The position numbers and the translations under genes are program-made. Of a stretch of DNA of 64,000 bases, positions 4,843-62,400 are shown piece by piece. The notes under the pieces were generated by a model that saw only the letters and a list, made by a program, of their open reading frames with translations, made no database searches and was not told the DNA's origin. Location of the stretch: IMG/VR virus record IMGVR_UViG_3300040856_003054, positions 62,001-126,000 of that record; one strand, given 5' to 3'. The DNA is from a virus. How positions within the stretch are numbered: position 1 is the first letter of the stretch; each line of letters starts with the position of its first letter.

Positions 4843-5066
4843 CTGAAGAAGACAAGTATGCTCTCAAAGAGTTTCTGCGTGGTGCTGGTGCATTTCTTCT
4901 TGCCTCTGCTGTCTTTCTTGCTTACTTTGCATCTGGTGATAAACCAATCAATGAAGCATCATTTGAAGTGGTTGATAAGTATGATAATCGTTGTAATGTA
5001 ATACGATATACTCCTAATAATTCTGCACGATATGTTTATTTCTTGGATTGTTCATCTAAATACTAA
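4839..5066 (+). CDS. Small single-pass membrane protein
   Basis: This gene encodes 75 residues. One hydrophobic segment (AGAFLLASAVFLAYFA, about residues 16-31) follows a charged N-terminus. The C-terminal domain has two Cys (CNVIRY and LDCSSKY), which could form a disulphide if it is outside the cytoplasm. The start overlaps the previous gene by four bases. The stop codon lies inside TAAATACTAATG, the left boundary of the HEG regulatory element that follows. Confidence 0.65.
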   Translation: MTEEDKYALKEFLRGAGAFLLASAVFLAYFASGDKPINEASFEVVDKYDNRCNVIRYTPNNSARYVYFLDCSSKY

Positions 5067-5067
5067 T

Positions 5068-5149
5068 GCCTTAACTGACCGCAATCTGTAAGGTGGGAGG
5101 AGAGAAATCTCCTCCTTTGTAATATAAATACTAATGCGGTTAGTTTAAG
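5068..5149 (+). promoter_or_regulatory. HEG switch element A: arm, terminator, late promoter, complementary arm
   Basis: The 5' arm CTTAACTGACCGCA (5070-5083) is complementary to TGCGGTTAGTTTAAG (5135-5149), allowing one G-U and one bulge. Local stem GCCTTA/TAAGGT (5068-5073 with 5088-5093) competes for part of the arm. A terminator hairpin GGAGGAGA-GAAA-TCTCCTCC (5096-5115) with a short T run follows. The late promoter TATAAATA is at 5123-5130. The 3' arm overlaps the AAGAG ribosome-binding region (5147-5151) of the HEG starting at 5159. Inference: only late transcripts, which lack the 5' arm, expose that site. Confidence 0.7.
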
Positions 5150-5158
5150 AGTAGAACT

Positions 5159-5854
5159 ATGGTAAATCCATATAGATTTTATACCTATGCTTATTTGCGT
5201 GAGGATGGAACTCCCTATTACATAGGCAAAGGTAAAGAAAATAGAGCATATAAGAAAGTTAAGGGTGAAGTTGGAAAACCAACTGACAAATCAAGAATAA
5301 TTTTTCTCAAACAAAATCTAACTGAAGAAGAAGCATTTAGACATGAAATCTACATGATTGCTGTGTTTGGGAGAATTGATTTGGGAACTGGCATTCTTCG
5401 CAATAAAACTGATGGTGGTGAAGGTTCTACTGGATTAAAAATGTCCGATGAAAGTAAACAAAAGATAAGTAAAATTCATAAAGGTAAAACTCTTTCTGAA
5501 AAACATAAACAAATACTTGAAAAACATAGAGTTAAAAAACATTCCAAACAAACTATAGAAAAACTAAAAAAATCAAAAATAGGAAATAAATGGAATGTTG
5601 GAAGAAAACTTTCAGAAGAACATAAAGAAAAAATAAGAAAATGGAACTTGAATAAAATTGTTAGTGAAGAAACTAAAATAAAAATAAGTCAGTCAAAAAA
5701 AGGAAAACCTCAAAGTGAAAATCAAAAAGAAGCAATTAAAATGTTATGTCAAAAAGTAAGAGGAACAAAATGGTGGAATGATGGGCAAATCAACAAAAGA
5801 AGTGTAGAATGTCCTGGTGATGGTTGGAATTTGGGTAGAGTTAGGTTGTCATAA
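5159..5854 (+). CDS. GIY-YIG homing endonuclease
   Basis: This gene encodes 231 residues. The GIY-YIG nuclease domain is at the N-terminus: YTYAYL (residues 8-13) and YYIGKG (20-25), with the conserved helix EEEAFRHEIYMI further on. NUMOD3-like DNA-binding repeats follow (SDESKQKISKIHKGKTLSEK and later copies). The C-terminus has a WWNDGQ and CPGDGWNLGR module seen in phage HEGs. Such free-standing enzymes cut unoccupied sites and spread by recombination. The N-terminus is nearly identical to that of the 28448 HEG, but the C-terminus differs. It is driven by element A and followed by a terminator-promoter. Confidence 0.93.
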   Translation: MVNPYRFYTYAYLREDGTPYYIGKGKENRAYKKVKGEVGKPTDKSRIIFLKQNLTEEEAFRHEIYMIAVFGRIDLGTGILRNKTDGGEGSTGLKMSDESKQKISKIHKGKTLSEKHKQILEKHRVKKHSKQTIEKLKKSKIGNKWNVGRKLSEEHKEKIRKWNLNKIVSEETKIKISQSKKGKPQSENQKEAIKMLCQKVRGTKWWNDGQINKRSVECPGDGWNLGRVRLS

Positions 5855-5878
5855 GGACACTTTACAAACTGGCACGGG

Positions 5879-5912
5879 GGCACTTGAAAACAGGTGCCTT
5901 TTGTTGTATAAT
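5879..5912 (+). promoter_or_regulatory. Terminator hairpin with overlapping sigma70 promoter
   Basis: GGCAC (5879-5883) pairs with GTGCC (5894-5898), followed by TTTT. The -35 TTGAAA (5884-5889) sits in the hairpin loop, and TATAAT (5907-5912) is the -10 with exactly 17 bases between. Termination of the upstream HEG transcript and initiation of the next unit are packed into 34 bases. A near-copy is at 7769-7802. Confidence 0.8.
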
Positions 5913-5934
5913 GACTTTATGAAACAAAAATCTT

Positions 5935-6552: not shown

Positions 6553-6810
6553 ATGATTTCTCCTTACAATGTAGTTCCTGGAACTGATATTGTTCATAGC
6601 ATCACTGATTGTTATGAACTCTGTGATGAAGCAGAAGGATGCACTCACACTGTAAAACTTAATGCGGATAATGGTGGTGTTTACTTGGAATCAATAGGAA
6701 AGCAACACGATAGTGAGCACAGAGGTATCACTGAATATATGACTATCTCAAACAAAGAACTTGCTATAGTAGTCGCAAAAAGGATTTTGGAATTGTACAA
6801 CGCAGTATAA
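6553..6810 (+). CDS. Small protein of unknown function
   Basis: This gene encodes 85 residues. It has two Cys in CYELCDEAEGC (residues 20-30) and a strand pair around residues 40-48. A C-terminal helix (NKELAIVVAKRILELYNAV) follows, as in small alpha/beta domains. The stop TAA lies within TATAAATA (6806-6813), so the gene end abuts HEG element B. No family is recognised. Confidence 0.7.
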   Translation: MISPYNVVPGTDIVHSITDCYELCDEAEGCTHTVKLNADNGGVYLESIGKQHDSEHRGITEYMTISNKELAIVVAKRILELYNAV

Positions 6811-6817
6811 ATAAAAA

Positions 6818-6915
6818 TGTCTGTTTGGACTGCAATCTCTACGGACAAGATTAGGTGCTCTTTGGGGCACCTTTTCTATTATAAAGTTTTATAAATAATA
6901 ATGCAGTCCAAATAG
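6818..6915 (+). promoter_or_regulatory. HEG switch element B
   Basis: The 5' arm CTGTTTGGACTGCA (6821-6834) is complementary over 14 bases, with one G-U, to TGCAGTCCAAATAG (6902-6915). Local stem TGTCTG/CGGACA (6818-6823 with 6842-6847) encloses most of the arm. Terminator AGGTGC/GCACCT (6853-6858 with 6867-6872) is followed by TTTTCT. The late promoter TATAAATA is at 6890-6897. The 3' arm ends seven bases before the ATG at 6923. It is nearly identical to element C apart from one compensated pair and a short insertion, yet drives a different nuclease family. Confidence 0.75.
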
Positions 6916-6922
6916 AATAGAA

Positions 6923-7744
6923 ATGACTAATCATAGTCCTAGAATTTATGTGTATAAAATCACATTTGAAGAAGTTCCTTATTATTACTATGGAGTCCAT
7001 AAGGAAAATAAGTTTGATGAATACTATATGGGTTCTCCTTATACTCATAAATGGGTTTGGGATTTTTATACACCTAAAAAACAAATACTTCAACTTTTTG
7101 AGTTTAGTGATGAAGGTTGGTCAGAAGCAAACGAAATAGAACAAAGATTGATTAGACCTGTATTCAATACAGATAAATGGTGTCTCAACGAAAATTGTGG
7201 TAGAGTAGTTTCTCTTAATATCTTAAGGGAAAATGGTAAAAAAGTTAGTGAAAAATATTCAAGTATAAATGGTAAAAAGAATGGAAAAAAATCTTATGAA
7301 CTTGGATTAGGAATTCACGGAAGAACCAAGGAGCAAAGAACTGAAGATTGTGGTAAAGGTGGGAAAATAATGGGAGAAAAACATAAAAAAGATGGAACTG
7401 GAATTTTTGCAATTACTTCAGAAGAAAGAACTGAAATCGGTAAAAGAATGGGAAAAATAAATTATGAACTTGGTATTGGTGTTCACGGAAGAACCAAAGA
7501 AAAAATGACCGAAGATGGGAAAAAGGGAGGTAAAATCACAGCAGAAAATCATAAAAGAAATAAAACAGGAATTTTTGGAATAGATGACGAACAAAAAAGA
7601 AAAAATAGTATAAAAGGTGGTAGAAGGACATCCTCTCAAAAATGGATGTGCCTTGAAACTGGTTATGTTAGTAATGCTGGTGGACTTTCTCATTATCAAA
7701 AGAAAAGAAATATAGACACATCTAAAAGAGTTAGAATATCATAA
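6923..7744 (+). CDS. Divergent GIY-YIG homing endonuclease
   Basis: This gene encodes 273 residues. The N-terminus has a divergent GIY-YIG signature, YKITF (residues 11-15) and YYYGVHK (21-27), followed by a Trp-rich region and an NEIEQRLI helix. The middle contains repeated Gly/Lys-rich DNA-binding units (LGIHGRTKEQRTED, then GVHGRTKEKMTED, with GKKGGKI blocks). The C-terminal module KWMCLETGYVSNAGGLSHYQ is shared with the 37726 HEG. It is driven by element B and followed directly by the terminator-promoter at 7769. Confidence 0.88.
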   Translation: MTNHSPRIYVYKITFEEVPYYYYGVHKENKFDEYYMGSPYTHKWVWDFYTPKKQILQLFEFSDEGWSEANEIEQRLIRPVFNTDKWCLNENCGRVVSLNILRENGKKVSEKYSSINGKKNGKKSYELGLGIHGRTKEQRTEDCGKGGKIMGEKHKKDGTGIFAITSEERTEIGKRMGKINYELGIGVHGRTKEKMTEDGKKGGKITAENHKRNKTGIFGIDDEQKRKNSIKGGRRTSSQKWMCLETGYVSNAGGLSHYQKKRNIDTSKRVRIS

Positions 7745-7768
7745 GGACACTTCTCAAACTGGAACAAG

Positions 7769-7802
7769 GGCACTTGAACTCAGGTGCCTTTTCTTGTATA
7801 AT
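7769..7802 (+). promoter_or_regulatory. Terminator hairpin with overlapping sigma70 promoter
   Basis: GGCAC (7769-7773) pairs with GTGCC (7784-7788), then TTTT. TTGAAC (7774-7779) and TATAAT (7797-7802) are 17 bases apart. It is nearly the same sequence as 5879-5912, including the GACTT after the -10, and follows a different HEG. Confidence 0.8.
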
Positions 7803-7823
7803 GACTTCATACGCAACAAACTG

Positions 7824-11272: not shown

Positions 11273-11493
11273 TGGACTTTCCAGTGTTCTTAAATAAATG
11301 GATAATCTCCAATAAGTTTCTTAAGTATACTCCATTCTGGTGGTGGTACAGGTTAATATCTCATCAAGGTTTTCGCTTTGATGATTATTATGTGTGGAAG
11401 GAGTTTTGGATGTCCTTAAATCAAGGATATATGGATATGAACTATAAATGGGAGTTTGAACAATATTGGAGTGTAAAACCTAAACATAAATAA
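11272..11493 (+). CDS. Small aromatic protein, possible paralogue of preceding gene
   Basis: This gene encodes 73 residues. The ATG at 11272 shares one base with the preceding TGA; a GTG at 11269 is the alternative start. It is rich in Trp, Tyr and Phe (FWWWYRL near residue 23). The GYMDMNY segment echoes GYIEMTDEY of the 11036 gene. The stop lies within CATAAATA (11485-11492), the left edge of element C. Confidence 0.6.
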   Translation: MDFPVFLNKWIISNKFLKYTPFWWWYRLISHQGFRFDDYYVWKEFWMSLNQGYMDMNYKWEFEQYWSVKPKHK

Positions 11494-11496
11494 TGA

Positions 11497-11583
11497 TGTC
11501 TGTTTGGACGGCAATCTCTACAGACAAAGATTAGGTGCTTTCGGGCACCTTTTCTATTATAAATAATAATGCCGTCCAAATAG
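11497..11583 (+). promoter_or_regulatory. HEG switch element C
   Basis: The 5' arm CTGTTTGGACGGCA (11500-11513) is complementary over 14 bases (one G-U) to TGCCGTCCAAATAG (11570-11583). Local stem TGTCTG/CAGACA (11497-11502 with 11521-11526) is perfect. Terminator AGGTGC/GCACCT (11533-11538 with 11545-11550) is followed by TTTTCT. TATAAATA is at 11558-11565. The HEG start is at 11591. Relative to element B, T6831-A6905 has become G11510-C11573, a compensatory change. Confidence 0.78.
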
Positions 11584-11590
11584 AATAAAG

Positions 11591-12226
11591 ATGAACTATC
11601 TAAAGATTTATTGTAATCTTATCAGGAAAGCAGAGAATAGAACTCCACCTGAAGGTTATACGGAAAAACACCACATATTTCCTAAAAGTATTTTTGGAGA
11701 TAATGATAGAGTTGTAATATTAAGTGGAAGAGAGCATTATATTGCTCACGCATTATTAGAAAAAGCATTTATAAAAAGGTATGGTGGAAATCACAAAAAA
11801 ACTAAAAAGATGTCTTTTGCTTTTTGGTGTATGAATAACCAAAAATCAAAAAATACTTATTTAAATTCTTATTTTTATGAAAGTTCCCGAATGAGAGTTA
11901 GTGGGGAAAATAATATAGCAAAAGACCCAATTATTCGTAAAAAAATAAGTGAGAAAAAACGAGGAAAAAATCATCATCAATATGGAAAACCACATTCCCA
12001 GGAAACTAAAAATAAGATAAGTAAAAAGAGGAGTGGAAAAAATAATCATATGTCTAAACATTGGAAAATTACATTTTCCAATGGAAATGAAATTGTATTG
12101 TGTGGATTATATAAATGGTCCAGGGAAAATGGATATTGTGCTACTCATATTATTGGAGTTTGTCGTGGAAAAAGAAACTATCATAAAGATATTGTGTCAG
12201 TTGAAGAACTGGCACAAATTTCTTGA
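11591..12226 (+). CDS. HNH homing endonuclease
   Basis: This gene encodes 211 residues. The HNH-type core is in the N-terminal third: EKHHIFPKS (residues 25-33) and RVVILSGREHYIAHALL (40-56). NUMOD3-like repeats follow (IRKKISEKKRGKNHHQYGK, then a second copy). The C-terminal DNA-recognition module begins WKITFSNGNEIVLCGLYKW and ends HKDIVSVEEL, and is shared with the GIY-YIG enzyme at 28448. The N-terminal 90 codons are nearly identical in DNA to the 26451 HEG. It is expected to cut intronless or HEG-less sites and spread the cassette. Confidence 0.92.
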   Translation: MNYLKIYCNLIRKAENRTPPEGYTEKHHIFPKSIFGDNDRVVILSGREHYIAHALLEKAFIKRYGGNHKKTKKMSFAFWCMNNQKSKNTYLNSYFYESSRMRVSGENNIAKDPIIRKKISEKKRGKNHHQYGKPHSQETKNKISKKRSGKNNHMSKHWKITFSNGNEIVLCGLYKWSRENGYCATHIIGVCRGKRNYHKDIVSVEELAQIS

Positions 12227-26367: not shown

Positions 26368-26378
26368 TATTGTGGGCA

Positions 26379-26446
26379 GCAACATTGCGGGGGCGTAAGG
26401 TTGTGTAAGTCCCACTTTTATGGTATAAATAATAATACCCCCGCAA
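26379..26446 (+). promoter_or_regulatory. HEG switch element D
   Basis: TTGCGGGGG (26385-26393) is perfectly complementary to CCCCCGCAA (26438-26446), five to eight bases before the HEG start codons (26451 or 26454). A local stem GCAAC/GTTGT (26379-26383 with 26400-26404) encloses the 5' arm. The late promoter TATAAATA is at 26424-26431. It lacks the compact terminator hairpin of the others; instead GTGGG (26372-26376) can pair with CCCAC (26411-26415) before TTTT. Confidence 0.68.
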
Positions 26447-26450
26447 AAGA

Positions 26451-27227
26451 ATGATGAACTATCTAAAAGTTTATTGTAACCTCATCAGGAAAGCAGAGAA
26501 TAGAACTCCACCTGAAGGTTATACGGAAAAACATCATATATTTCCAAAGAGCATTTATGGAAATAACAATAGAGTTGTAATTTTCACTGCAAGAGAGCAC
26601 TATATTGCTCACGCATTATTGGAAAAAGTTTGTATCCAAAGGTATGGATTGAAAGATAAAAGAACTATAAAAATGATTTATGCCCATAGTGGAATGAAAG
26701 GTAATAATGGTTATATCAATTCCACTTTATATGAAGGTGCAAGAAAAAGAAGAAGTGATAATATGAAAGGAAAACCTTTGTATATTCCAACTGAAAAGCA
26801 TAAAGAAGAAATCAGACAAAGAAGATTGGGAACCAAAGCATCCGAAGAAACAAAAAGAAAAATGAGCGAATCGCATAGAGGTAAAAAATGTCCTCCAAGA
26901 AGTGAAGAATGGAAAAAAAGGGTGGGTGAGAGAATGAAAAAATATGTTGGAGAAAAAAATCCTTTTTATGGAAAAAAACATACAGAAGAAACTAAAAGAA
27001 AGATAAGTGATTCGAAAAAAGGTAAAAAGTATGATAAGAAAATAATAAAAAAATCAAAATACTTATGCAAAGTTAAAAATTCCAAAGGAGAAGTATTTTC
27101 TACCACAAATTTAAAAAATTTTTGTAGAGAAAATAATCTAAACCCCAGTTGCATGTATAGAATAATATCTGGCAAACAAATTCAACATAAAGGATGGGAA
27201 ATTGTTGAAAGAATTAAAATAGAATGA
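26451..27227 (+). CDS. HNH homing endonuclease
   Basis: This gene encodes 258 residues from ATG 26451 (or 257 from ATG 26454). The N-terminal HNH domain is almost the same as in the 11591 enzyme: EKHHIFPKS and RVVIFTAREHYIAHALL. Several NUMOD3-like repeats follow (EEIRQRRLGTKASEETKRKM, ETKRKISDSKKGKK). The C-terminal module is different from that enzyme: KSKYLCKVKNSKGEVFSTTN and NFCRENNLNPSCMYRIISGK, a NUMOD1-like helix-turn-helix. It is driven by element D; the stop overlaps the next ATG. Confidence 0.92.
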   Translation: MMNYLKVYCNLIRKAENRTPPEGYTEKHHIFPKSIYGNNNRVVIFTAREHYIAHALLEKVCIQRYGLKDKRTIKMIYAHSGMKGNNGYINSTLYEGARKRRSDNMKGKPLYIPTEKHKEEIRQRRLGTKASEETKRKMSESHRGKKCPPRSEEWKKRVGERMKKYVGEKNPFYGKKHTEETKRKISDSKKGKKYDKKIIKKSKYLCKVKNSKGEVFSTTNLKNFCRENNLNPSCMYRIISGKQIQHKGWEIVERIKIE

Positions 27228-28136: not shown

Positions 28137-28343
28137 ATGACTGACACTGTTAATGTTCTTCCTCACATCCGAGAACTGAAAGATACTTGGCGTCGTCAAG
28201 ATTTCAGTTTCACTAAATCGCAGAAAGAAGAATACGATCTCTTGATTGCTGCTCGTCGTGAAAGGGTAAAACAACATTATAAAGAAGGAAAAGTTTGCAC
28301 AATCAGCAAATCTGCAATGGACAAACTTAAAGAAGATAACTAA
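28137..28343 (+). CDS. Conserved small basic helical protein
   Basis: This gene encodes 68 residues from the ATG at 28137. The pattern WRRQDFSFTKSQKEEYDLLI followed by AARRERVKQHYKEGKV is one I recall in cyanophages, function unknown. It is mostly helical and basic. The stop TAA lies in TAAATAATGATG, the left edge of element E. Confidence 0.68.
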   Translation: MTDTVNVLPHIRELKDTWRRQDFSFTKSQKEEYDLLIAARRERVKQHYKEGKVCTISKSAMDKLKEDN

Positions 28344-28350
28344 ATAATGA

Positions 28351-28435
28351 TGCCTGAAGTTGACTGACATCTCTACAGGCAGAGGAGGAGCAGAAATGCT
28401 CCTTTTCTTGTATAAATACTTAAGTCAGTCAACTT
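28351..28435 (+). promoter_or_regulatory. HEG switch element E
   Basis: AAGTTGACTGAC (28357-28368) is perfectly complementary to GTCAGTCAACTT (28424-28435). Local stem TGCCTG/CAGGCA (28351-28356 with 28376-28381) is perfect and holds the 5' arm in its loop. Terminator AGGAGCA-GAAA-TGCTCCT (28386-28403) is followed by TTTCTT. The late promoter TATAAATA is at 28411-28418. AAGAG (28436-28440), the likely ribosome-binding site for the ATG at 28448, directly abuts the 3' arm. Confidence 0.78.
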
Positions 28436-28447
28436 AAGAGCAGAACT

Positions 28448-29140
28448 ATGGTCAAAAATCCATATAGATTTTATACCTATGCCTATTTGCGTGAGGATAG
28501 AACTCCTTATTACATAGGTAAGGGTAGTGGAAGAAGAATATATGATAAAAATGGAAGACCTTGTGGTAAACCGAAAGATAAATCCAGAATTATTTTCTTA
28601 AAGCAAAATCTAACCGAAGAAGAAGCATTCAAACACGAAATCTATATGATTTCTGTGTTTGGTAGAAAAGATTTGGGGACAGGTATTCTTCATAATAAAA
28701 CCGATGGAGGTGATGGAGTTTCTGGGGTAATAGTTAGTGAAGAAACAAGAGAAAAATTAAGAAAATCATCTACAAAATATAATAATGAAGGTCAAAGAAA
28801 ATTGGCAAACAAAAAAACTCATAAAAATTATTATCTAAAGAATAAAGAAAAAATATCACGATACTATAAAGAAAAATATAAGAAAATGAGTTCTGATTTG
28901 GAATGGATGGAGAATCAAAGATTAAAACAAAGAATACCTAAAGAAAATCAAAAAACAAATAGATTGTGGAAAACTTGGAAAATAACTTTCAGTGATGGTA
29001 GAATATTGGAAATGACTGGATTATATAATTGGTGTAAAAATAATGGATATAGTGATGGGTTAGTTTATCAGGTAGCAAAAGGCACCAGAAATAAACATAA
29101 AGATATTGTGTCAGTAGAACAACTGACCACTTACTCTTGA
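28448..29140 (+). CDS. GIY-YIG homing endonuclease (domain hybrid)
   Basis: This gene encodes 230 residues. The GIY-YIG domain has YTYAYL and YYIGKG, nearly identical to the 5159 enzyme through about residue 95. The middle is a Lys/Tyr/Asn-rich linker (YYLKNKEKISRYYKEKYKKM). The C-terminus, WKITFSDGRILEMTGLYNW to HKDIVSVEQL, is the same module as in the HNH enzyme at 11591. The gene is thus a hybrid of a GIY-YIG catalytic head and a recognition module otherwise seen on an HNH head. It is driven by element E. Confidence 0.92.
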   Translation: MVKNPYRFYTYAYLREDRTPYYIGKGSGRRIYDKNGRPCGKPKDKSRIIFLKQNLTEEEAFKHEIYMISVFGRKDLGTGILHNKTDGGDGVSGVIVSEETREKLRKSSTKYNNEGQRKLANKKTHKNYYLKNKEKISRYYKEKYKKMSSDLEWMENQRLKQRIPKENQKTNRLWKTWKITFSDGRILEMTGLYNWCKNNGYSDGLVYQVAKGTRNKHKDIVSVEQLTTYS

Positions 29141-37470: not shown

Positions 37471-37630
37471 AACTGATTTCTTTATTCTGAATGGTGAACA
37501 GTATCAAGAGTATTATACTGAAGCAACAAAGGTAGGTGTTACTCTTGATTACTATTTGATGGAGTTTACGGATACTGAAGGACCAGATGTTGTATATGAT
37601 GGAGAGAATTGGGTTGAGATTAGTGAATAA
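37463..37630 (+). CDS. Small acidic protein of unknown function
   Basis: This gene encodes 55 residues from the ATG at 37463. FFILNGEQYQEYYTEATKVG and VTLDYYLMEFTDTEG are recognisable segments, and YYLMEF resembles the end of the 25224 protein (VEYYLAEFY), so both may share a short C-terminal helix. The stop lies in AATAAATA (37626-37633), the left edge of element F. Confidence 0.6.
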   Translation: MIETDFFILNGEQYQEYYTEATKVGVTLDYYLMEFTDTEGPDVVYDGENWVEISE

Positions 37631-37637
37631 ATAGTGA

Positions 37638-37719
37638 TGCTTAAATGAGTCGCATCTTTAAGTAGAGAGGGGGCAGAAATGCTCCTTTTCTTGTATAAAT
37701 AATACTGCGACTCTTTAAG
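37638..37719 (+). promoter_or_regulatory. HEG switch element F
   Basis: The 5' arm CTTAAATGAGTCGCA (37640-37654) is complementary, with one bulged T, to TGCGACTCTTTAAG (37706-37719). A local stem CTTAAA/TTTAAG (37640-37645 with 37657-37662) shares part of the arm. Terminator hairpin with GAAA loop (37669-37686) is followed by TTTCTT. The late promoter TATAAATA is at 37694-37701. The HEG starts at 37726. Confidence 0.74.
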
Positions 37720-37725
37720 ACAAGA

Positions 37726-38490
37726 ATGAATAACAAGTATTACACTTACGCCTATTTGCGTGAAGATGGAACTCCCTATTATATTGGAAAAGGAGAAGGG
37801 AATCGTGCATATAAAAAGCAACATAATTGCCCTGTTCCAAAAGATAGAAATCGCATCATCTTTCTTAAACAAAATCTTTGTGAAGAAGAAGCACTTAGAC
37901 ACGAAACTTATCTAATAGCAGTTCTTGGTAGGAAAGATTTAGGAACTGGAATCTTACGCAATTTGACTGATGGTGGAGAAGGTGTGAGTGGAGTTGTTTG
38001 GACTGAAGAAAGGAGAAAAAGTTTTAGTGAATATAAAAAGAAAAATCCATCTATTATGTCTGATGAATATATTGAAAGATTGAGAAGAAGGATGAAAAAC
38101 TTCAGTCACACTGATGAAGCAAAGGATAAAATAAGCAGAGCAAATAGTGGTAGAAAATGGGATGAAGATAGTAGGAAAAGAGGAAGTATTGCACAAAAAG
38201 AAAGATATAAAAAAGGCAACAATTCTCTTGCTAATCTCACTCCAGAAAAGAGAAAGGAAATTGTGCAAAAGTCAAATGAAACTAATAAGAAAAATGGAAC
38301 AGGCGCCTGGGGTTTAAGTGAAGAAGAAAGAAGAGAAAGAGCAAAGAAAAACTATCACAAAACTCTTGGAGTTGTTAATTCTACAATGTGGAAATGTTTA
38401 GTAACTGGAAAGATTACAAATGCAGGAGCATTGACAGGTTATCAGAAAGCAAGAGGAATTGATATTTCATTAAGAGAGAAAATTGTATAA
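37726..38490 (+). CDS. GIY-YIG homing endonuclease
   Basis: This gene encodes 254 residues. The GIY-YIG head has YTYAYL (6-11) and YYIGKG (18-23), plus EEEALRHETYLIAV. The middle contains NUMOD3-like units (AKDKISRANSGRKWDEDSRK) and an NGTGAWGLSEEERRERAKKN segment like that in the 6923 enzyme. The C-terminal module WKCLVTGKITNAGALTGYQK is also that of the 6923 enzyme. So its head matches the 5159/28448 type and its tail the 6923 type. It is driven by element F and followed by a long non-coding stretch. Confidence 0.92.
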   Translation: MNNKYYTYAYLREDGTPYYIGKGEGNRAYKKQHNCPVPKDRNRIIFLKQNLCEEEALRHETYLIAVLGRKDLGTGILRNLTDGGEGVSGVVWTEERRKSFSEYKKKNPSIMSDEYIERLRRRMKNFSHTDEAKDKISRANSGRKWDEDSRKRGSIAQKERYKKGNNSLANLTPEKRKEIVQKSNETNKKNGTGAWGLSEEERRERAKKNYHKTLGVVNSTMWKCLVTGKITNAGALTGYQKARGIDISLREKIV

Positions 38491-51700: not shown

Positions 51701-54700
51701 GAAATTTTGAAGTAATTAGAAGTGGTAGAGTTGGTATTGATACAACTGCTAGAGTTTCAATATTACTGAATGATAGTGTTCCTGATAATTTCTTTTATAG
51801 TTTAGAAAATATAAATGAAGATTTTATCGGAGACATTAAGAAAGAGATAATTGTAGATACTGAAGTTTATAATCATAATCAAATTAATATAATATCCAGC
51901 AAATATACTGGATCTCATAGAATTACTGGTATTGGAACAACAAATGCATTTACCTTTGACTTGACCGATTATCCAGAAACAGATTCATATGATCAGATAA
52001 CATCAAATCTTTATTATGAAACAAACTCTTCTACTGCTTATGGTGCAATATCTAGAGTTAATATTATTAATGGTGGTTACAATTATCAATTTACTCCAGG
52101 AATCAGTACAGTAATTAGCAATCATGGATCGGGTGCTATTTTTGAAGTGCAAAGTAACTCAATAGGAAGTATCATTAAGGATGAAATAGAAGATATTGGA
52201 TTTGATTATCCAACTGACTTAACATTAAGTCCTTCCTTAAACCTCCCCGAAATACTTCAGATTGAACCACTGGCATCTTTTGTTGATATTACCATTCTCT
52301 CTGCAGGTAAAAACTACTTAACTCCACCTGGACTTGTTGTAATTGATGGTTTCACTAAAAAAGTTGTTTCTGATGTCGATTTAAGATATGAAATTGGCGC
52401 AACTAAAGTTATAATTGTTAAGAATACTTATGGAATGTATAATACAACTCCTACAATTATTCCTATCAATAATTCTAATGGTGTTGGTATTAATACAATA
52501 TCATATAACTCAACTACCAAAGACGTAACTGTTGGATTTAATACTGGATTCAGTGATGTATTTCCATTCTCAGTTGGTGATGAAGTATTAATTGAAAATA
52601 CAAGTGTTGGCGTTGGTTCTACAGCAAAAGGATATAATTCATCTGCTTATGATTACAAATTATTCACTGTTACTTCGGTAAATTCTGCTCTTGGGGGAAA
52701 TACTGGATCTATAACTTATAACTTATCAGATTATCTATTTGCAGGTGAATTTCCCGGTATTCCTGATTTGAGTGTTTCTACTGGTAGAGTAGTTAATAGT
52801 AATGATTTTCCAATTTTTGACATAAAACTCAAGAAAAATGATTTCTTTGTTGGAGAATCTGCCATTTCTCAATCAGGAATTGGTATCGTAGAGAGTTGGA
52901 ACAACAAAATTGAGTATCTTAAAGTTTCAACTGATAGTGATTTGTTAGTTGGAGAAACTTTGACTGGTCAATCATCAAACACTAGAGGTGTTATAAAGAA
53001 AAAAATTGACTTTAACTCATTTATTAAACTATCAGCAATTTCAAAAGTTAATAAGGGATGGATTTATGATACTGGATTCCTCAACAATAATGTACAGAGA
53101 ATAGCGGATAATAACTACTACCAATACTTCTCATATTCTCTCAAATCAAGAGTTCCTCTTGAAACTTGGAACGATTCTGTTCAATCGTTGAATCATACAT
53201 CAGGATTCTTGAAATTCTCTGACTTAATGATTGAAAACCAAGATGTGGATATAACATCCGCTAAGGTATTTACAGAAGATAGTATTGCTGATTTAACTGT
53301 AGATATTGTCGGAAAGGGAAATCTAAATTGCGTTTACACTTTTGATCTTGCAACTGAAAAAACAACAAGAATCGGAAATGGATTGGTTTCTAATGAAATT
53401 ATCTTACAAAATAGAGTTTTAACCGATTATTTTGAGTCAATAGGTAACCGAGTTCTAATTATTGATGATATTAGTGATCAGTTTAATAGTAATCCAAGAT
53501 CAACTAGATTCAGTACAGTCGATGAATTTGAATTGGCATCCGCAAGAACTAAAAAATACTTTACTTATGTAAGAGATAAGAGATTTACTGCAGAAAGACA
53601 AATCCTAATTGTTTCTCTTCTACATGATGGTACTTATGGTTATTTAAATCAGTATGGAAGAGTCGAAACTTATATAGATTTGGGATCTTTTGACTTTAAT
53701 ATAAGTGGAACACTCGGCCAACTTAATTTCTATCCAATTAAATATTCAGTTAATGATTATGATATTTCTTTAGTTTCTCATGATCTTAAAAGTAATATTT
53801 CTGGTATAGGTCAAAGTTCTCTTGGCAATATTGTTGATTTAAAATCAAGTCAATCTACTATTCCATCCGGATCTTCTTCTGCAACCAATATTGTTTCAAT
53901 AGCAAATACATATAGATCTGCAAAAGTTTTGGTTGAAATTGGATTTGTTGATGGTTCTTATTATGAATTTGATGAAATAAATTTACTTCAAGATGGAACT
54001 AATGTTGATATTGTTGATTATGGGCAGATAACAGATAATACTATCACAAATCCATATGGTATTCCAGGTCTAGGAACTTATATTCCGTATATTGACGGAT
54101 CTAATATAAAAATTGACTTTAAACCAAATTCAGTTCTTGGAGTTGGTGTAACAATTAATACATTAACTATTTCGATTGCAAGTTCTATTTCTTCACCAAT
54201 AGGCATAGGGACAGAAGAACTTATTACTGGATATATTAGTTCAGGAATTTCTTCTATTACTGCTTCAGTATCTCCTGTTGAAAATATAATTACAGAGTAT
54301 CCAAATAACCATGCGTGTGCTTATTACATAGTAAGTGTTGAAGATACTACAAACCAAAAATATCAAATGTCAGAGGTTATTGTAATTGATGATGGTAATG
54401 ACACATCAATTACGGAGTATGGAATAATACAAACGCATTCATCACTTGGAGCAGTTGGTGCAGCTGTTAGTACAAATGGAACACAATTGACATTCACACC
54501 AGAACCAAATATTGATGTTCAAGTGAGGGTTTTTCAAAATGCACTAAGTTTAGAAAAGATTAATGTTGATCAGAATTCTATAGATTTTACTAATGCAGAA
54601 ATTACTAGTAATTTTGGAATTTATGAAGGAACTGATAGATCTGTGAAGAGAAGTTTTGATCTTACTCACAATCAAAGTCCAATTTTCTTAAGATATTTTG

Positions 54701-59472: not shown

Positions 59473-62400
59473 ATGTCTCAAGAAACCAACCTCAACGTAG
59501 CTCCATACTTTGACGATTACAATGAACCAGTAATTGGCGGTAAAGATAACAATTATTACAAAGTTCTATTTAAACCCGGATATCCAGTTCAAGCAAGAGA
59601 ATTAACAACATTACAATCTATTCTACAAAATCAAGTAGAACAGTTTGGTAATCACTTCTTCAAAGAAGGTGCAAAGGTAATTCCAGGTAACTTAACTTAT
59701 ATTCAAAATTATTATGCAGTACAAGTTGAAAGTAATTTCTTAGGTATTCCCGTATCATTATATCTTGATAACTTAGTAGGAACTCAAATCCGAGGTGAAA
59801 ATTCTGGTGTTGTTGCAATTATCAGAAAAGTAATTACGTCAGAGGAGTCGGAAAGAGGAAATATTACACTTTATGTTGACTATTATCAGTCAAATCAAAA
59901 TAACCTTTCCACAAGAGATTTTGAAGATGGCGAAAATTTAATTACTGACTCAAATATTGCTTTTGGTAATACTTTTATTTCTGCTGGAGAGGGATTTGCA
60001 AGAACAATCGCTACTAATTCTACTGCGATTGGTTCTGCATTTGCATTAGGCGCAGGAGTTTACTTTATCAGAGGTTATTTGGTTGATGTTGCTGATGAAA
60101 CTCTAATCCTGGACCAATATACCAATACTCCAAGTTATAGAGTAGGTTTTGATGTTATTGAGGAAATTATATCCGCAGATGTTGATCCTAATCTAAATGA
60201 TAATGCAAATGGTTTTAATAACTTTGCAGCACCAGGTGCTGATAGATTAAAAATAACAGCACAACTATCAAAAAAACCAATAGATTCGTTTGATTATCCA
60301 AACTTTATTGAACTTGCAAATGTAAAAGATGGTGTCCTCAGAAAAATAAACAAAAATACTGAGTACAATCTTTTAGCAGATGAGTTTGCAAGAAGGACCT
60401 TTGATGAATCTGGCCATTACTATATTAAAGCATTTAATACTTATTGTAGAGAAAGTTTAAATGATGGAAAGGGAAATAATGGAATTTATTTGGAGAATCA
60501 ATTAACTTCTTCTGGAACTTTACCCTCCGAAGATTCTTTAGTTTATAAAATCAGTCCAGGAAAAGCGTATGTAAGAGGATATGAAGTAGAAACGATTGCT
60601 CCAATTTTCTTAGATGCACCAAAAACAAGAACAACTAAGTTATTGGAAAATCAATCCGTTAACTTTAGTTTTGGATTTTCTTTAAATCTGAACAGAGTTT
60701 CTGGATCTCCTTCTATTGGAATTAATACTTCTTCAACTATTAGTTTAAGAAATGAAAGAGTTGGTTTAAGTTCATATACTCCTGCAGGAAAAGAGATAGG
60801 AATTGCAAGAGTTTATGATTTTGCTCTAGAATCTGGTGGATATGAGTTAGAAAATCAAAATATCAATAGATGGGATATTTCTTTATTTGATGTTCAAACA
60901 TATGGTGACTTAACACTTAACCAACCAATTACACTGAATACTCCAACTTACATTAGAGGTGATTCTAGTGGTGCTACTGCATTCCTAAAGAATAATGTAT
61001 CTGTTGGAACTGCGCTCACAGTTTATCAAATTTCAGGAAACTTTATTAATGGTGAGAAACTAGTATTTGATAGTACTAATGATACTAGAGTAAGTATTGG
61101 TTTTACGAACTATGGCATTTCTGAAGTAAAATCTTTATATGCAAATGTAGGTGCATCAAAAACTTTCTCTGCAGATACTTTACAATCAGTTTCTGCATTA
61201 GTTGGTAATGGCAATGCTACTATTACAGGTTTTTCTGCAGGTGTAGCAACAGTAACGAGTCCAACAGTTGCTTTTCCTGGAATTGTAACTACCGGTAATT
61301 TGATTCAGTACACAAGACCTGGGTTTACTGTAAAATCATTTGCAAAAGTTGATGAAGTTTTAACAAATTCTATTATCGTCAGTGGTATTACTACAGTAAC
61401 TGGAGTTTGTGATGGTGGATTACCTGCATCATCAACTACCGTGAATGATCTTTCTGTTCTTTATACAAGACTTCCAGGAACACAAAACGACGAAAAATTA
61501 TTCTCAACTCTTCCTAAGTCAAATGTCAATTCTGTAGATTTGACCGGTTCAACAATAATAATAAGAAAAGAGTTCAGCACTTCTATCGTAGATAACTCTA
61601 CATCACCAATAACTGCAGATTCTAATGAGGTATTTTTACCTTTTGATGAAGAGAGATATGTTTTAACTAGATCTGACGGAACTATTGAAGTACTGACAGA
61701 AGATAGATTTCAATATTTCAATGGTTCTAATGAAATTGTAATCAATGGTTTAGGTAGTAACGATGCGAATTGTAAACTTATTGCGACTCTTAGAAAAAGT
61801 TCAATAACTTCTAAAGTTAAGAGAAAGGCACGTATAGAATCTTTAGTTGTAAATAAATCTAAGTATGATTATTCGGGAACTGGTTCAACATCAAAAAATG
61901 ATGGTTTAGTTTTCGGAGATTATCCATTTGGAACAAGAGTTCAGGATGAAAAAATTTGTTTAAATGTTCCTGACGTTATTAAGATACATGCGATTTATGA
62001 ATCAACTAATACATCAGATCCAGTATTACCCAGTATAACTGTTGGTTCTTTAGATGGACCTAGTTCCACGACTAGTGATTTAATTATTGGAGAAGAATTT
62101 GTTGGAACAATTAGTGGTGCAAGAGCACTTCTTGCCGAAAGATTAGATAGTTCTAAAGTATCATTTGTATATTTAAACGAAAGCGTCTTTAGTGATGGAG
62201 AAGTTGTCGAATTTTTAGAATCTAGTGTTAATGGAATTTCTTTTGCATTAAACCAAGGAAGTAAAAATATAACAAGTAACTATAATTTTAATAATGGACA
62301 GAAATTAACTCATTATGATTATAGTTATATTTTAAGAAAACAAAATGTAAAAGAACCTTTGAGAAAATTAAGAATTATATATTCTCAAGCTTTCTACGAT

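Follow-up and report, generated by a model that had tools for sequence, protein, structure and literature searches.

Six homing endonuclease (HEG) genes in one viral genome fragment are each preceded by two complementary sequence arms with a late promoter box between them, and the question is what this arrangement does. The preliminary description proposed a late-only switch, in which RNA reading through from upstream would hide the ribosome-binding site (RBS). We have re-examined the arms in the window, i.e. the whole 64,000-nt stretch analysed, which comprises positions 62001–126000 of a 136-kb viral record (G000) of T4-like cyanophage character.

Endonuclease genes and elements of the window

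The six ORFs located 3' of the elements encode free-standing endonucleases of the HNH and GIY-YIG types (Table 1), one of which (6923) has no match in the profile libraries (Pfam, phrog). The same HEG families are present in the related cultured Synechococcus phage S-SRM01. No further members of the six families were found in the window by tblastn. The NUMOD3 protein 5159 also has a match to phrog_15526 (function unknown), the family matched by 28448.

N- and C-terminal parts are shuffled among the HEGs 5159, 6923, 11591, 28448, and 37726; in particular, a C-terminal domain is common to the HNH protein 11591 and the GIY-YIG-type protein 28448 (45% identity over 77 aa). In addition, the 3' flanks of HEGs 5159 and 6923 share a stretch of ~75 nt (window 5852–5930 and 7742–7820), which reads TAAGGACACTT..CAAACTGG..GGGCACTTGAA..CAGGTGCCTTTT.TTGTATAATGACTT and in which a TATAAT box accompanies a terminator-like hairpin, giving the impression of a 3' module that moves with the HEGs too. 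Two GIY-YIG-type HEGs, L286 of phage B23 and L288 of phage Sf-CH5, are publicly annotated as "translation initiation factor 2", which is probably a misannotation.

All six elements with complementary arms around TATAAATA were found where the preliminary description had placed them, and its distance of 5–13 nt between the 3' arm and the HEG AUG is true for nearly all relatives. It was also right that complementarity is kept as the arms vary, but not that four copies differ, as all six arm sequences do. The loop–leader helices of 6818 and 11497 (the focal element) comprise 15 bp with one G-U, 11 of them being contiguous Watson-Crick pairs; their arms are distinguished by a single base pair, in which both bases have changed. 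In the focal element the helix runs on into TAGA with one G-U. The helices of the other elements comprise 11 bp with one G-U (5068), 12 bp (28351), 9 bp (26379), and 8 bp plus 6 bp across a bulge (37638).

Table 1. Coordinates of the elements and endonuclease genes in the window.
Feature	Position	Strand	Remarks
P1, late box ATAAATA of the predicted sRNA, focal element	11486..11492	+	TAAATA box here in 135/137 relatives
Hairpin 1 (TGTCTG...CAGACA), focal element	11497..11526	+	covarying stem
Guide, focal element	11503-11513	+	loop of hairpin 1, TTTGGACGGCA
Intrinsic terminator, focal element	11533..11555	+	AGGTGCTTTCGGGCACCTTTTCT; predicted sRNA 3' end; terminator-like in 137/137 relatives
P2, late box of the HEG mRNA, focal element	11558..11565	+	TATAAATA
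Leader arm, focal element	11570..11580	+	TGCCGTCCAAA; complements loop; covariation
HNH homing endonuclease with NUMOD3	11591..12226	+	Pfam NUMOD3, phrog_655
Class-I element	5056..5145	+	P1 5056, hairpin 1 5068-5094, terminator 5096-5120, P2 5123-5130, leader arm 5135-5145
GIY-YIG-type homing endonuclease with NUMOD3	5159..5854	+	phrog_314 homing endonuclease
Class-I element	6807..6912	+	P1 6807, hairpin 1 6818-6847, terminator 6853-6877, P2 6890-6897, leader arm 6902-6912
Putative GIY-YIG-like homing endonuclease	6923..7744	+	C-terminal domain common to 37726
Class-II element	26372..26446	+	nested hairpin and T run 26372-26420, P2 26424-26431, leader arm 26438-26446
HNH homing endonuclease with NUMOD3	26451..27227	+	N-terminal part 55% identical to 11591
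Class-I element	28340..28435	+	P1 28340, hairpin 1 28351-28381, terminator 28387-28408, P2 28411-28418, leader arm 28424-28435
GIY-YIG-type homing endonuclease	28448..29140	+	phrog_15526; N-terminal part 73% identical to 5159
Class-I element	37627..37719	+	P1 37627, hairpin 1 37638-37664, terminator 37670-37691, P2 37694-37701, leader arm 37706-37719 (bulged helix)
GIY-YIG-type homing endonuclease	37726..38490	+	phrog_314 homing endonuclease

Anatomy and covariation

In the flanks of ~30 related loci the parts follow one order: P1 (nTAAATA), hairpin 1, an intrinsic terminator, P2 (TATAAATA), the leader, and the AUG. In class-I loci, the loop of hairpin 1 corresponds to the 5' arm and the leader to the 3' arm. 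The preliminary description had overlooked P1, the hairpin around the 5' arm, and the terminator between the arms. As the 5' arm lies in a hairpin that extends from its own late box to a terminator, the natural product would be a separate late small RNA (sRNA), and the late-only switch, with read-through RNA hiding the RBS, is not supported in the form proposed.

To describe the class, we picked 137 elements solely by a TAAATA box and a helix between its upstream and downstream sides. P1 is present in 135 of them, compared with 8/137 in the adjacent 26-nt control window and 0–3 further upstream; a terminator-like hairpin with a T run is present in all 137, compared with 59/685 shuffles. P2 reads TATAAATA in 126/137 elements and, as in the T4 I-TevI type, is a late box immediately 5' of the HEG; P1 is less strict, and the spacing between the two varies from 61 to 86 nt. 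Transcript starts were taken from the late-box consensus: five nucleotides and then a purine follow P1 in 132/135 cases and P2 in 131/135, which would place the 5' ends at the base of hairpin 1 (sRNA) and where the complementary leader begins (HEG mRNA). The class-I sRNAs fold with z of about −3.4 to −5.7 (focal hairpin and terminator, −24 kcal/mol, z −5.1), while the focal leader by itself is almost without structure. Judged by sequence against these controls, the predicted RNA appears to have an independent promoter and terminator. The design, with re-matched letters, recurs in well over 100 related virus sequences, including those of cultured viruses. At L049 (− strand), L150, L158, L165, L166, and L174, an additional late-box-like sequence and what remains of a short CCTGAA..-type hairpin are located just 5' of P1, which could reflect stacking or duplication of elements.

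When 90 class-I elements are aligned, 92% of the cells of the loop–leader helix are paired, and at most positions both sides have changed (at column 25/125, CG 44, UA 40, GC 6, broken 0). The whole structure is 87% paired, compared with 38–50% when partners are slid by 1–3 columns, and hairpin 1 and the terminator also covary. The check proposed earlier, a search for covarying pairs, thus gave strong covariation. Related sequences inflate such counts, and for this reason leader-swap and one-base-guide tests were added. A helix score of ≥25 is reached with the own leader at about 198 of 1203 TAAATA sites, and at 6 after swapping leaders between sites. Where guides are one base apart, the leader has nearly always changed at the matching base (10 comparisons without and 26 with other leader changes; in 3 it is unchanged yet paired), and pairing is kept in 40 of 42 comparisons.

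A covariance model built without the loop–leader pairs (R1) matches 24 of 25 related records, one of the 24 weakly. In the whole G000 record it finds nine strong class-I copies, to which the 26379 type has to be added; this corrects the six copies of the preliminary description. Nearly all of the 64 elements used in a duplex test come from R1 searches. The cognate duplex (RNAduplex) is the best in its own genome for 64/64 elements (tied best for two identical pairs), with a mean of −22.5 kcal/mol, compared with −9.3 for non-cognate pairs, in a set that is not fully arm-blind, as the primary-sequence positions of R1 include the arms. The focal cognate duplex has −26.4 kcal/mol. The guides are therefore specifically complementary to the mRNA leader, and covariation keeps them so; the earlier view that the complementarity acts at the RNA level, is linked to HEGs, and involves late boxes is supported.

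A YUNR motif occurs in 52/64 guides, compared with 33 expected in shuffles, a count that is descriptive only, as the copies are related. In the window, the six loops have no further trans targets beyond the level of shuffles. The data give no support for avoidance of like guides within a genome (2 identical pairs, compared with 0.7 expected by permutation), and an antisense system of the incompatibility type was rejected on these grounds. Two class-I elements of G000, at 51855–51957 and 67057–67159 (window 5057–5159), have identical guides and leaders in front of different GIY-YIG HEGs; because of this identity their sRNAs should cross-regulate.

Association with endonucleases and mobility

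An HEG-type ORF follows each of the 64 elements. Three of these ORFs are members of other nuclease families, namely L231 (HNH-like; it matches Endonuclease_7 weakly, below the cutoff), L263 (HNH), and L275 (GIY-YIG). An exact search for the terminator and P2 string, which is agnostic of HEGs, yielded 51 distinct elements. All have P1 as well as a guide that is complementary; an HEG follows 50 of these, and the remaining one runs off its contig. Several N-terminal nuclease types have the guide TTTGGACGGCA in front of them, and therefore module and nuclease are exchanged.

Three sites in cultured phages can be compared in occupied and empty states. The site between gp43 and uvsX is occupied in S-B68 and empty in S-H34 and S-N03; that before the DNA primase gene is occupied in MC09 and empty in MA10 and S-H34, with flanks 94–100% identical; and that in a clamp-loader gene is occupied in S-N03 and empty in MA01. 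At all three, the inserted DNA holds P1, the hairpin, the terminator, P2, and the HEG, and no TAAATA box is present at the empty junctions. Therefore, P1 is not a promoter of the neighbouring gene. As these inserts show, P1, the sRNA, the terminator, P2, and the HEG arrive as one unit. The guides have no match to the three empty sites beyond shuffles, and we rejected on this basis a role of the guide as a homing-target match or in an OMEGA-like RNA-guided nuclease.

The second scaffold (class II) is used by 26379 and roughly a dozen related elements, among them one in cultured Sf-CH5. Its nested hairpin, GTGGGC(A/G)GCAAC-loop-GTTGCGTAAGTCCCAC, carries the guide in the loop and usually has T residues on its 3' side, and the leader complements the loop. 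No P1 late box is visible for 26379 in the window. The logic is that of class I on a different scaffold. The use of two scaffolds with the same HEG families suggests that function, not sequence, is under selection. In the class-II loci L095, L099, and L123, TATAAT overlaps or precedes the P2 box (e.g. TATAATAAATA), which suggests combined sigma70/late promoters. Two relatives of the same HNH HEG have a layout clearly unlike class I: at L044:350-407, an I-TevI-like arrangement, in which a single long hairpin 5' of the AUG encloses TATAAATA, replaces the sRNA unit, and L040:2440-2500 has a similar, less perfect one.

Proposed regulation, its alternatives and precedents

We consider it probable that each element is a two-transcript unit in a mobile HEG cassette, in which loop–leader pairing would hold the nuclease low late in infection. 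P1 would start an RNA of ~55–60 nt at the 5' base of hairpin 1, to be ended by the intrinsic terminator, and P2 would start the HEG mRNA, whose first ~10–17 nt would complement the hairpin 1 loop and often also its 5' stem strand. Contact of loop and leader would yield a duplex ending about 5–13 nt before the AUG, which would block ribosome loading and possibly also mark the mRNA for decay. The nuclease would thereby be kept low at a time when phage genomes are many. We infer the production of both RNAs, their 5' ends, and the timing of repression from the boxes and folds, and assume, by analogy, repression of HEG translation in trans as the outcome. As P1 and P2 are both late boxes, escape of the HEG would need differing strength or RNA stability. 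Upon terminator read-through, loop–leader pairing could also form in cis, and such a pseudoknot is possible as a second layer.

A switch acting in cis only, where the 5' arm of read-through RNA would pair with the leader and conceal the start region, and P2 RNA, lacking that arm, would be translated late, seems improbable to us. The arms are able to pair in cis, and such switches are established: T4 I-TevI and SegB and Aeh1 MobE have late-promoter RBS hairpins on read-through RNA (PMC2988022). These systems resemble ours in that base pairing controls the HEG start region beside a late promoter; however, theirs is one hairpin that holds the promoter and hides the RBS, whereas our first arm forms the loop of a distinct hairpin that has a late box and a terminator to itself, and we rejected a single read-through hairpin of the I-TevI type on these grounds. 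A cis-only switch needs neither P1, present in 135/137 elements, nor a conserved hairpin over the 5' arm, and the terminator would halt read-through before the leader. Moreover, P1 belongs to the inserted cassette, not to a neighbour, and the true I-TevI layout in the relative L044 looks different.

There is little chance that sRNA pairing instead activates or stabilises the HEG mRNA, e.g. by protecting its 5' end. Pairing at the extreme predicted 5' end could shield the mRNA, and the arm stops a few nucleotides short of the AUG, not on it; still, the focal leader, being nearly unstructured, offers nothing to open, and the duplex falls inside the stretch that a ribosome usually covers. It is hardly credible that the arms serve the HEG as an operator or a recombination site at the DNA level and pair as RNA only incidentally: although I-TevI binds an operator over its own late promoter (PMC2988022), the arms are free to change as long as complementarity is kept, G-U pairs are present, the P1–P2 spacing varies, one guide precedes several nuclease families, and the guides do not match the three empty sites beyond shuffles.

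A full-text search of open-licence literature found no antisense RNA paired with free-standing HEGs, which may have been described elsewhere; it returned the T4 HEG hairpins, CfrI of S-PM2, and general phage sRNAs. Antisense control of a transposase is exerted by IS10/Tn10 RNA-OUT on RNA-IN. As in our two-transcript unit, a short hairpin RNA pairs through its loop with the 5' end of the mRNA for the enzyme of a mobile element; we also draw the likeness, predicted for our elements, that ribosome binding is blocked and the enzyme becomes scarcer as copies rise. RNA-OUT is encoded on the strand opposite its target, whereas our sRNA is a separate complementary copy located 5' of its target on that target's strand; it has a late box and a terminator to itself, and the enzyme in question is a homing endonuclease. 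The elements are not IS10 RNA-OUT itself, as the sRNA and the HEG share a strand and do not overlap.

C4 is an antisense RNA of bacteriophages P1 and P7. It also lies upstream on the strand of its target, with short complementary stretches near the target gene start. Unlike our sRNA, C4 is processed from the transcript of its target and controls an antirepressor, whereas here two transcripts are implied by the terminator and the pair of late boxes, in a multi-copy family with ever-changing guides. C4 is cited in PMC12197685. The HEG unit, by analogy, would function like IS10 RNA-OUT and resembles C4 in position, being a member of neither. Another non-coding RNA beside a cyanophage homing endonuclease, CfrI of S-PM2, differs in being ~225 nt long and antisense to psbA (PMC12197685), and S-PM2 has no match to our model.

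No Rfam family was matched in the window at gathering score, only weak chance-level matches being present. Model searches of T4, Aeh1, S-PM2, P-SSM2, and Syn9 found no true element: a weak match in T4 (E 0.03) was just a terminator with a late box behind it, and one in Syn9 (E 0.02) had no element by eye and no HEG. There were no matches to a DNA pattern for the GIY-type terminator, to the exact terminator/P2 string in cellular genomes, or to a first rigid pattern in the phage's own genome.

A wider reading, which we regard as unlikely, is that the swappable antisense modules silence both their own HEG and any incoming cassette with the same guide, on at least two unrelated sRNA scaffolds, and would thus provide RNA-level exclusion between the selfish elements of co-infecting phages. 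The elements can be tested in cultured phages, namely S-B68 (Synechococcus WH 7803), MC09 and S-N03 (MW02), S-SRM01, and B23. Together they make up a large natural collection of hairpins and cognate leaders, some of these pairs being one compensated base apart, which is useful for studies of the evolution of RNA specificity and for orthogonal riboregulators. For the phages themselves, a class of free-standing HEGs that spans the GIY-YIG and HNH families seems to carry a matched antisense RNA in its mobile cassette.
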